The notes under the pieces are model-generated. The model saw only the letters and a program-made list of their open reading frames with translations, was not told the origin of the DNA and ran no database searches. The translations under genes were made by a program, and so were the position numbers. Positions 5,137 through 62,208 of a stretch of 64,000 nt of DNA are shown here, piece after piece. The DNA comes from Blastopirellula sp. J2-11 (GTDB lineage: Bacteria; Planctomycetota; Planctomycetia; Pirellulales; Pirellulaceae): positions 4,402,001-4,466,000 of the forward strand of contig NZ_CP097384.1 of NCBI RefSeq assembly GCF_024584705.1, written 5' to 3'. The stretch's first letter is position 1. Each line of letters starts with the position of its first letter.

Positions 5137-5910
5137 CTTCGTAGCCGAATCACGAGTTTTGAGGCTGCGCTATTTAGCAATTCAGGAAGTGTTGAACACA
5201 GGTGAAGCACGTTCAAACAGGGTCCGAATCCACCGAAAATCGTCACACTAGCCCGCTGCGCGAGCGAGGGAATAGAGTTGGCGATCCTAACCCGGATTGA
5301 AGTGCGAGCCGCATTCCCTCGCTGGCGCTGCGGGCTAGTGTTCTGTCACGCGACAATTTTCGGGCGCCATGTTCTTATTAGCCGTAGTGCGTTAGCACCG
5401 GTTTCTGATGGGGACTCATTTGCGAAAGGCTATTGGTGACAGAAACCGCGGCTAACGCCGTGCAGCTGATTTCGTGGAAGCCGAAAATAGCGGTTTGACA
5501 GAACACTAGCCCGCTGCGCGAGCGAGGGAATAGAGCTGGCGATCCTAACACGGATTGAAGTGGCGAGCCGCTTTCCCTCGCTTGCGCTGCGGGCTAGTGT
5601 TCTGTCACGCGACAATTTTCGGGCGCCATGTTCTTATTAGCCGTAGTGCGTTAGCACCGGTTTCTGATGGGAACTCATTTGCGAAAGACACTTGGTGACA
5701 GAAACCGCGACTAACGCCGTGCGGCTGATTTCGTGGAAGCCGAAAATAGCGGTTTGACAGAACACTAGCCCGCTGCGCGAGCGAGGGAATAGGGTTGGCG
5801 ATCCTAACCCGGATTGAAGTGCGAGCCGTATTCCCTCGCTGGCGCTGCGGGCTAGTGTTCGCTTGATTCGAAATAGCGCAACTTCAAAGCTCGCGAAGCG
5901 GGCTACGAAG
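5137..5910. repeat. Composite palindromic repeat cluster (modules A, B, C)
   Basis: Fills the gap between clpS and aroA. The outer arms are module A: cttcgtagccgaatcacgag at 5137 (direct) and its inverted form gcgggctacgaag ending at 5910. Between them lies B-C-B-C-B. B is a ~95-bp hairpin starting ctagcccgctgcgcgagc at 5248, 5506 and 5765 and closing gcgctgcgggctag. C is a ~163-bp hairpin bounded by tgttctgtca / tgacagaaca whose arms carry agaaaccgcggctaacgccg and its inverse. The B-C unit is 258-259 bp and the copies are nearly identical. The same modules recur at about 2.1, 47.1-47.7, 56.3 and 62.1 kb. Confidence 0.85.
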
Positions 5911-7195
5911 AAAACTCAACTCCGGCTAGCCGCGACAGATCTTCAAAGTAGTGCGGATACGTCTTGGCGGTGCAGCCCGGGTTCAAAATCACGACGCCCG
6001 GCTGTCGCAATCCGACCAGCGCCAAACTCATCGCCATGCGATGGTCGTTGTAGGTCTCCACTTCAGCGCCTTGCAACTTGCCGGGAACGATCGTGATCCC
6101 GTCTTCCAGTTCTTCAACAATAGCCCCCAGCTTGCGCAGTTCAGACGCCAGGTCCCCAATTCGATCGGTTTCTTTGTGACGATTATGGGCGACGCCGGTC
6201 ACCGTGGTCGGACCATCCGCAAACAAGGCGACCGCAGCGAGCGTCTGCACGGTATCGCTGATCGCATTCATGTCAACGCAGATCCCTCGTAGGCGATTGC
6301 CAACCACTTTGATCGAGCTGGGCCCGTATTCGACCTGACAACCCATCTGCTCTAGACACTCGCAAAATGCGACGTCTCCTTGCAACGCGTCACGCGATAA
6401 CCCCTCGACGGTCACGCTTCCGCCGGTGATCGCCGCCGCCGCCCAAAAGTAACTCGCTGCCGATGCATCCGGTTCAATCGCATACTGACGCCCCACATAT
6501 TCGCCATGCGGAACGACCAATTGGGTCAAATCGCCGGCGTCGACGTTGACGCCAAAATCACGCATGACGGCGGTTGTCATATGAACATACGGCTTCGAAA
6601 CCAACTCGCCGACCACCTCCAGTGTGACTCCCTGGGCGGCGTAGGGCGCCGCCATCAACAGTCCGCTGAGGTATTGACTGCTGATATCGCCAGCGATCTG
6701 GGCGACCCCGCCGACCAACCCGACCGTCTCCACCACGACCGGCGGACAGCCGTTCTCCGCTTCGCTACGACACGGGACGCCGAGGGCGGTAAGCGTTTCC
6801 AGCAAGTCGCGAATCGGCCGCTCTCGCATCCGCTGGATACCGTCTAGCCGATAGCGTCCCTTTCCGGCGGTGACCATCGCGGTGAGAAAACGAATCGTCG
6901 TGCCGCTGTTGGCGACAAACAGATCCGCGTCGGACGACGGAATCACCCCGCCGCAACCGGCGACCTCGATCACGCGAGCGCTGCGATCATGCCGCACTTC
7001 GATCCCCAGTCGACGCAGACTGTCGATCATGACATGCGTGTCTTCGCTCTCCAAGGCGCCGGTCAACGACGATTTCCCCTGAGCCAGCGCCGCAATCACC
7101 AAGGCGCGATTCGTCAAACTTTTCGATCCCGGCGGCAGGATCGAACCGAGAATCGGCGGCGCAGGAACAATCTCAATCCGGCTAGTCACAGGCAC
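5903..7195 (-). CDS. aroA: 3-phosphoshikimate 1-carboxyvinyltransferase (EPSP synthase)
   Basis: 430-residue shikimate-pathway enzyme that transfers enolpyruvyl from PEP to shikimate-3-phosphate. Signatures in order: [18 protein letters not shown] (~residue 21, substrate-binding Lys and Ser), [16 protein letters not shown] (~91), [16 protein letters not shown] (~168), and [20 protein letters not shown] near 340, with the [10 protein letters not shown] motif near 385. The length is typical. The start is a GTG at 7195. The last two codons and the TAG stop (5903-5911) lie inside repeat module A, so the repeat supplies the stop codon. It is flanked by repeats on both sides and appears to be a single-gene unit. 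Confidence 0.95.
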
Positions 7196-47128: not shown

Positions 47129-47692
47129 CTTCATAGCCCGAAGCGCGAGCTTTGAGGTTGCGCTATTGGGCAATTCAGGAAGTGTTGAACACGGGTGAAG
47201 CACGATCAAACAGGTTCCGAATCCACCGAAAATCGTCACACTAGAGCGCTTTTCAGCAAGCTGAACAAAGAGTCCTCTGTCGTCTAGCTTCTCCCCCAAA
47301 ATCAGCCGCACGGCGTTAGCCGCGGTTTTTGTCTCCAATTTTCCGTCGACAAAGAGTTCCTGTCAGAAACCGCGGCTAACGCCGTGCGGCTGATGTCGAT
47401 ACGTGCCGCGCAGCGCCGTCTTCACTTTCAAGCGTTGGAAAATCAAAATGGGTCAGCTAGCGGAAAACCGTCACACTAGCCCGCCAGCGCCAGCGAGGGA
47501 CTAGAGTTGGCGATCCTAACACGGATTGAAGTGGCGAGCCGTATTCCCTCGCTGGCGCAGCGGGCTAGTGTGACGGTTTTCCGCTTGATTCCCATCGTGT
47601 TTTACCGCTCTTCATCCGTGGCTTTGCCGTGTTCGATTCTTCTATTCTGTCAAAAAAGCGCAACTTCAAAGCTCGCGCTGCGGGCTACGAAG
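47129..47692. repeat. Composite palindromic repeat cluster (modules A, C, B)
   Basis: Module A at 47129-47168 (cttcatagcccgaagcgcga) and its inverted form at 47655-47692 (ending cgggctacgaag) enclose a module C hairpin (cggcgttagccgcggttttt / agaaaccgcggctaacgccg, ~47305-47392) and a module B hairpin (ctagcccgccagcgccagcg near 47477 / gctggcgcagcgggctagtg ending ~47571). The stretch after the left A (gcaattcaggaagtgttgaa, then cgaatccaccgaaaatcgtc) is almost identical to that at 5177-5245. No gene in this ~650-bp gap. Confidence 0.85.
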
Positions 47693-56281: not shown

Positions 56282-56437
56282 CTCTTCGTAGCCCGAAGCG
56301 CGAGCGAGGGAAATGCGGTTAAACAAAATGACGAATGTCGAATGAATGATGAGTTCACGAGATTATTCATGCTTCGAGCTTTGTTAGACATTCGTCCTTA
56401 GTCATTCGTCATTTCCCTCGCTCGGGCTACGAAGAGG
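56282..56437. repeat. Palindromic repeat with module A ends between argC and argJ
   Basis: ctcttcgtagcccgaagcgc at the left and ctcgggctacgaagag at the right are inverted copies of module A fused to gcgagggaaatg/catttccctcgc; the interior has a second inverted pair (atgacgaatgtcga / attcgtc...cattcgtcat). Confidence 0.8.
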
Positions 56438-62056: not shown

Positions 62057-62208
62057 CTTCGTAGCCCGAAGCGCGAGCCTTGAAGTTCCGATTTTGAGAA
62101 CCAATTGGACACTAGCCCGCAGCGCAAGCGAGGGAATACGGCTCGTCACTTCCATATCCCTGTTTGTATCGCCAACAGCATTTCCTCGCTTGCGCTGCGG
62201 GCTAGTGT
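62057..62208. repeat. Module A + module B hairpin between microcompartment genes
   Basis: Module A at 62057-62095 (cttcgtagcccgaagcgcga) and a module B palindrome at 62109-62208 (cactagcccgcagcgcaagc / gcttgcgctgcgggctagtg, 20-bp arms or longer). The ~285-bp gap between the aldolase and dehydrogenase genes holds no gene. Confidence 0.85.

Follow-up and report, generated by a model that had tools for sequence, protein, structure and literature searches.

The palindromic locus at 5137-5910 of the window, the 64-kb stretch of DNA analyzed here (G000:C1:4402001-4466000), is very probably a nest of three mobile systems: two pairs of REPs and class 3 transposases, together with MITEs that insert at CTAG. 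The evidence read in the sequence itself comprises the REPs flanking both transposase genes, the concordance between REP type and protein tree, the match of the MITE ends to an IS630-family element, and the empty sites. From these we infer that the class 3 enzymes act on the A/B and C repeats. The first-pass annotation had described one composite family with A modules as its ends, moved by one enzyme; this was not borne out, and the modules belong to at least three systems.

Organization of the locus and related assemblies

The modules at 5.1-5.9 kb are arranged in the order A, B, C', B, C', B, A, and modules A, B and C were found at all five positions previously proposed in the window, exactly or within a few bases. 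The repeat unit in 5137-5910 measures 258 or 259 bp, and its copies are 96% identical to each other, in agreement with the tandem 258-bp unit described as almost unchanged. The A ends are indeed inverted to each other (5145-5175 against 5871-5901, 81% complementary). The features are as follows.

5138-5176, plus strand: left A module; a REP-like core on a GTAG foot (TTCGTAGCC...), followed by TTTGAGGCTGCGCTATTT
5245-5341, unstranded: B REPIN 1; two inverted class 3 REPs, ACACTAGCCCG...CGGGCTAGTGT; the same element flanks the RAYT1 gene
5335-5509, plus strand: C' MITE copy 1; 175 bp from CTAG to CTAG, with ends of IS630 type, placed at the CTAG of B
5377-5470, unstranded: C REPIN inside C' copy 1; REP pair of class 3 transposase 2, one arm diverged
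5503-5600, unstranded: B REPIN 2
5594-5768, plus strand: C' MITE copy 2
5762-5858, unstranded: B REPIN 3
5871-5909, minus strand: A module, right; gives the TAG stop codon to the adjoining aroA-like ORF
5903-7195, minus strand: aroA-like ORF; TAG stop, within 5903-5910, from the right A module
47134-47170, plus strand: A module, left, of the second composite
47241-47479, plus strand: C2 MITE of the second composite; CTAG-AGCGCTTTTC...CCGTCACA-CTAG, with a C REPIN inside at about 47301-47394
47473-47571, unstranded: B REPIN of the second composite
47660-47692, minus strand: A module, right, of the second composite
56285-56433, unstranded: GTAG-footed REPIN; A core continuing into B-type GAGGGAA, holding another insert (TGACGAATGTC...)
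62058-62208, unstranded: A module, then B REPIN (62109-62208)
2062-2310, unstranded: A module, then another palindromic insert (GGTTGGCCCGGATAGC...GCTATCGCGGCCAACC, 2116-2299)

The A module at 2061, formerly listed as a lone copy, is present but not alone, being followed by the palindromic insert at about 2116-2299. Compared with B. marina DSM 3645, the window formed largely collinear aligned blocks that were 83-93% identical. Two further genomes of the same genus were available (G018 and G107). The gap between clpS and aroA in two same-genus genomes measures about 40-45 bp and holds neither the element nor a decayed gene; the refuting outcome named in the first-pass annotation, similarity through unrelated gene decay, was not observed. 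By eye, the aroA-like gene stops with its own TAA in G018 and with its own TAG in G107.

REP cores A, B and C in the genome

A and B, which had been treated as independent modules, share one 17-nt core, (C/G)TAGCCCGnnGCGCnAGC. They are told apart by the continuation after it, TTTGAAGT or GAGGGAAT, and some GTAG-footed copies continue as B does. Nor is the C spacer a simple module: what lies between the B copies is a separate unit, C', with its own ends. The feet are GTAG in A, CTAG in B and TCAG in C.

With up to three mismatches, the A-core pattern matched 158 sites in the 6.43 Mb single-contig genome (two for the reversed pattern) and the B-core pattern matched 164 (none reversed), these two sets overlapping because GTAG-footed repeats that continue like B match both. 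The C-core pattern had 130 sites genome-wide, again with none for its reversed form. The proposed dispersed, non-coding palindrome family was therefore recovered across the genome, and with more than 100 sites for each core the modules are not single-copy elsewhere. Used as a query, the 774-bp locus matched the genome at least 109 times, far beyond chance, with scores computed for 40 of 251 initial candidates. Copies were examined in 128 blocks of the genome (449 kb) that cover 136 clusters from 266 listed positions, a part of all sites. The resulting numbers, at least 31 C', 72 B and 14 C2, are lower bounds biased to good matches; a copy was counted if it covered 95% of the query (C', B) or 85% (C2), with lengths extended to the query ends.

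The nearly perfect B hairpin at 5245-5341 (97 bp) had a folding energy of -38.3 kcal/mol as single-stranded DNA (z -8.96), and none of 200 shuffles was as good. For single REP hairpins, folding did not surpass that of shuffles (z between -1.3 and +0.7), which agrees with the weaker class 3 structure reported in PMC6006769. Among 245 distinct matches to the B core, stem positions 4 and 20 were C-G in 182, A-T in 23 and A-G in none, and the other 40 were further combinations, 37 of them non-standard pairs. Taking the majority per locus, the figures were C-G 52, A-T 5 and A-G 0 of 62. In 46 distinct C-type sequences, hand-picked among the matches listed, 95.3% of the cells in the C hairpin were paired compared with 89.8% after shuffling, and covariation reached 0.149 versus 0.052. 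None of 500 shuffles was as high, and slid versions gave at most 0.031. The pairs changed on both sides (two) and the further pair types (seven) were equalled in 118 and 60 of the 500 shuffles, respectively.

In the B. marina assembly (G080:C1), the region near 459400-459900 (L196) contains N gaps that share one starting point within B hairpins, which suggests that sequencing halted there. The assembly also contains there what resembles cloning-vector sequence, with a pUC-type polylinker.

RAYT1 and the flanking REPs

The first-pass annotation assumed an enzyme encoded elsewhere and suggested a search for RAYT-type transposases; two candidate RAYT-type genes were found, each flanked by modules. 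A profile search for Y1_Tnp in the own genome gave eight matches, two of which (L037 and L038) are flanked by A or B modules. Of the others, one had an 11-base match only, and five had no module at all in the flanks. L038 adjoins a 93-aa fragment.

RAYT1 (L037, G000:C1:4474388-4474876) is situated 8.4 kb beyond the window, between two full B REPINs that lie about 100-115 bp off on either side. Its protein scored 30.1 bits against Y1_Tnp (cut-off 23) and has NHVH, WT and YVIEGQ; in an alignment of 11 sequences, N95, H96, H98, W133, Y154 and Q159 were invariant. It carries all parts of the class 3 HuH signature (NHVH, W[TA], and Y and Q separated by four residues), and its gene stands between secondary structures that recur in the genome, as in class 3. 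The full set of class 2 TnpA-REP marks (GT[AG]G foot, WQ, YIxNP) was not found: WT and YVIEGQ stand in the protein, and the foot is GTAG in A-type repeats, CTAG in B and TCAG in C.

B. marina has an orthologous RAYT1 gene, matched in two pieces, at the same place and likewise between B elements. No RAYT1 orthologue was found at the corresponding place in G018. In 30 RAYT1-like loci drawn from the family, there were 103 B-type core matches versus two for the reversed control, and nine of these loci had no B-core match. A fragment matching class 3 residues 9-44 was also seen inside a B-like inverted repeat at G000:C1:502700 (L207).

Class 3 proteins across the phylum

The tree was built from 52 class 3 proteins, which remained from 60 loci after removal of five repeated places, L263, L265 and then L071 (96 aa). 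Loci with at least two B matches and no C match were labeled B-type, and those with at least one C match and fewer than two B matches C-type; the reversed B pattern also matched in 4 of 53 loci. With these thresholds, 20 of the 52 loci were B-type, 10 C-type and 22 neither. The half of the tree with RAYT1 comprised 18 B, 6 neither and no C, and the other half comprised 10 C, 2 B and 16 neither. REP type needs nine changes on this tree, compared with a mean of 23.2 for shuffled labels and none of 200 shuffles as low, a result that concerns the clustering of the label on the tree only.

Across Planctomycetota, the B-type core was detected within 500 bp of 62 of the best 80 class 3 genes among 393, compared with 3 of 80 for the control. 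In the same best 80 of 393 loci, it was present on both sides in 52, and its density was 2.48 per kb near the genes versus 0.20 farther away. Sorted by order, again for the best 80 of 393, the core was near the gene in 18 of 24 Pirellulales, 18 of 24 Planctomycetales, 5 of 5 Gemmatales, 3 of 3 Isosphaerales, 1 of 2 Brocadiales, 1 of 1 Phycisphaerales and 16 of 21 records without an order. CnAG was the commonest foot near class 3 genes (102 of 245 readings), GTAA and TTAG were also frequent, and the feet in relatives include CAAG, CCAG and GTAA.

The family scans for class 3, B cores and C cores were performed on one sample of 149 family genomes. A class 3 match was found in 20 of the 29 genomes with at least 10 B cores versus 38 of 120 others (p = 5e-4, kinship between genomes being ignored, as in all Fisher and Mann-Whitney tests, label shuffles and pair counts of this study). 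The other nine of the 29 core-rich genomes had no class 3 match.

RAYT2 and the C repeats

RAYT2 (G000:C1:2136641-2137123) is the second class 3 gene of the genome. The C scan across the family placed two exact C sites of the own genome (2136420 and 2137205) on either side of a class 3 match near 2136650. Its locus (L205) shows a C hairpin at 1854-1949, a single C REP at 2007-2038, the 160-aa gene at 2141-2623, and a second C hairpin at 2639-2731. The W motif is W-S, where the class 3 signature has W[TA].

C cores occurred in 8 of the 10 genomes with a RAYT2-like gene (at least 59% identity) versus 23 of 139 others (p = 5e-5), and C-core counts were higher in those 10 than in the 139 (p = 1.3e-7, or 1.3e-6 without the own genome). 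Two RAYT2-like genomes, G083 and G109, had no C sites; no class 3 match was found in G115 (41 C sites) or G048 (13). B. marina has 26 C sites, yet its best match to RAYT2 is 37% identical. A further class 3-like gene at G000:C1:190135 (L206:2635-3054) was considered as a partner and dropped because it has no flanking repeats. Its Y motif appears weak by eye, and it is possibly an orphan or domesticated copy.

C' and C2, two units bounded by CTAG

C' is 175 bp long including both CTAGs, has its own ends and carries the C REPIN inside. At least 31 near-complete copies, with 94-99% identity to the query copy, were present in the 449 kb examined. CTAG stands at both ends of 29 of them, and the other two have a single-base difference within the first four positions.

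Empty sites were read by comparison with B. marina. At 4306k, the B. marina sequence CGGG-CTAG-TGTCC corresponds to CGGG-CTAG-[C']-CTAG-TGTCC in the own genome, and the surrounding B is recognizably the same element; this empty B site is what is expected if the TA within CTAG is duplicated on insertion. At 4199k, B. marina has B without C', and the own genome has C' plus a further small palindrome. C' was thus gained at a pre-existing B at two sites. A third site, 4049k, has C' within unique DNA, where the B. marina sequence shows CTAG alone. Four sites (4029k, 4034k, 5603k and 5647k) were unreadable, being too diverged or gapped in B. marina. At G000:C1:4029400-4029650 (L320), a sequence of about 40 bp (GGAAAAACAAAGCGATCCAGTCCTGTCCAACCTTTCGAGC) is repeated directly in tandem; the B. 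marina stretch compared lacks these repeats.

The end pattern of C' was detected in 64 of the 241 family genomes scanned for it, with at most one control match per strand per genome. One relative (G182) contains a complete IS with two reading frames and with ends CTAGTGGTCCGTCA / CTAGTGTTCTGTCA that match those of C'. The larger protein of this IS (L363) belongs to the IS630 family (NF033545, E 2e-40, above cut-off; DDE_3), and G008 encodes a similar IS630-like protein beside a C'-type end. These were the two cases of an IS630-type gene at C'-type ends in 27 loci scanned. The IS with matching ends anticipated in the first-pass annotation was therefore found for C', in a relative and not in the own genome. 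In the latter, the end-pattern search with up to three mismatches, which a diverged partner would escape, revealed no autonomous IS630 with C' ends. One candidate, a pair of C' ends 1.7 kb apart (G000:C1:2611116-2612819; L339:617-2320), proved to be a C' copy into which an IS4-family IS has inserted. This IS (474 aa) occupies the apex of the C REPIN and is accompanied by what looks like a 10-bp direct repeat, GGCGTTAGCC, as for an IS that has landed in a REP hairpin. IS481 as mobilizer of C' was dropped once the IS630-family IS with matching ends had been found.

Going by the title of Tenzen and Ohtsubo (1991), IS630 reportedly prefers the TA in CTAG. TA duplication has been reported for its relative ISY100 (PMC2170065). 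Given the match to IS630-family ends and the TA/CTAG target, the best reading of C' is an IS630-type MITE carrying a C REPIN. C2 appears to be a similarly built MITE that is also flanked by CTAG and has different ends. Among its copies, at least 14 in number, nine have CTAG at both ends, three (the window copy included) have the right-end variant CCGTCACA into CTAG, and two are otherwise deviant.

Sorted by eye, 24 of the 31 C' copies had a B-type core on the left, the right or both sides, and seven had unique DNA. The window holds 77 CTAG, by proportion several thousand genome-wide, compared with at least 97 C-footed B-type cores in the blocks. A share of 24 among 31 copies for B feet is thus far above proportion, with the caveats that the blocks were chosen because they contain A, B or C matches and that some copies, for instance in the arrays at 722k, 3378k and 4407k, may have arisen by duplication and not by separate insertion. 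C' was also seen to supply the TAG stop codon of a lipA-like gene (L340:880-884).

Since CTAG bounds most copies of B, C' and C2 alike, B could itself be taken for a CTAG-inserting IS630-type MITE, with its class 3 neighbor incidental. We consider this very unlikely: its core flanks 62 class 3 genes in the best 80 of 393 loci, in several orders, and the control did so in 3 of 80; relatives with CAAG, CCAG or GTAA feet show that CTAG is not required; and ACA/TGT stands outside the CTAG in most of the 72 listed B copies, those in unique DNA included.

Inserts between A modules

The inserts bracketed by A modules differ, comprising B, C2, B-C' arrays, the TGACGAATGTC element and the GGTTGGCCCGGATAGC element. 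At 56 kb and 62 kb, the same intergenic place in B. marina holds different inserts. The palindromic element of 2116-2299 (GGTTGGCC...GGCCAACC) recurs in A...A frames at G000:C1:465391, 2189636, 2365285 and 3677737, where the A-to-A spacing is 255-256 bp. The A...A frame may be either an old REP pair that was later filled or a mobile unit.

A single composite transposable unit with inverted A ends, moved whole by one enzyme, would account for the A copies that face each other at many sites, such as these recurring elements, and for the A-type ends around different inserts in the window. It is nevertheless highly improbable, because the REP core of B is also in A, because B, C' and C2 occur without A and with their own ends, because B and C flank different transposase genes, and because the A...A inserts are not the same. 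Retention of the palindromes chiefly for a structural role in RNA or DNA (as terminators, mRNA 3' ends, or sites for gyrase or the nucleoid), with mobility minor, is hardly credible despite the strong hairpins, the positions directly 3' of genes and the stop codons from two elements, since the sites differ between species that are about 90% identical and near-complete C' copies still resemble the query copy so closely.

Proposed origin of the locus

We favor the nest of three systems, in which RAYT1, a class 3 TnpA-Y1 HUH transposase, would be the cognate enzyme of the A and B REPs, with B as an inverted REP pair. By analogy with TnpA-REP, RAYT1 may act on single-stranded DNA, where it would recognize the hairpin together with the 4-nt foot (CTAG for B, GTAG for A) and would copy or move REP pairs in trans. 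C would be the REPIN of the second class 3 enzyme, RAYT2. The C' and C2 MITEs probably insert at CTAG, in unique DNA as well, and C' would do so mostly at the CTAG foot of B, which would produce B-C' junctions with a common CTAG. The BCBCB array most likely arose from one B-C' pair via unequal recombination or slippage.

A more speculative and rather unlikely reading goes further. REP feet would serve as landing pads that couple HUH copying, as the source of new CTAGs, to the homing of IS630-type MITEs, and the compound with its MITE-borne REPIN could be spread by either enzyme class, as a self-assembling multi-enzyme mobile repeat.

Comparison with known systems

Class 3 TnpA-Y1 proteins are described in the relevant portions of PMC6006769 (Quentin et al., 2018) as having NHVH, W[TA] and Y....Q in about 160-180 aa, occurring mainly in Planctomycetes and being flanked by atypical or weak repeated secondary structures. 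RAYT1 and RAYT2 are alike in motifs (RAYT2 with W-S at the W motif), size, planctomycete host and flanking repeated structures. The same account left the origin and behavior of class 3 open, possibly as an intermediate between insertion sequences and REP systems, and called REPs species-specific (PMC6006769). Compared with what that account gives, two clades here are tied to two REP families, and one core extends across orders. It printed the class 3 foot as CnGA (PMC6006769), whereas CnAG was read here, along with GTAA, TTAG and others.

The many palindromes, the inverted pairs, the REP-flanked Y1 HUH gene and the GTAG foot in A resemble the REP/REPIN-RAYT systems of Pseudomonas and E. coli. 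However, the protein here is class 3 and not class 2, the foot is variable, and the core is conserved between orders. C' resembles IS630 or Tc1-mariner MITEs in its IS630-like ends, CTAG target and apparent TA duplication; it differs in its cargo, a REPIN that belongs to another transposase, and in its landing on REP feet.

GTAG-tagged REPs, including GTAG repeats in Planctomycetes, were reported in 2013 (PMC3733652, main text); that main text contains none of the words Pirellula, Blastopirellula, Rhodopirellula and CTAG. Our search of the open literature for an earlier account of these repeats gave PMC6006769 and PMC3733652 as the relevant sources, each as represented by the sections cited. 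All parts of the locus are of known kinds. What appears to be new, judging from sequence comparison, is the two REP-transposase pairings, the phylum-wide REP core, and the use of REP feet as MITE landing sites.

Two class 3 genes with two distinguishable REP families in one genome would make cognate recognition testable by REP swaps. The mosaic palindromes in planctomycete intergenic DNA may be explained by target-site choice, in that a CTAG foot suits MITEs that insert at CTAG.
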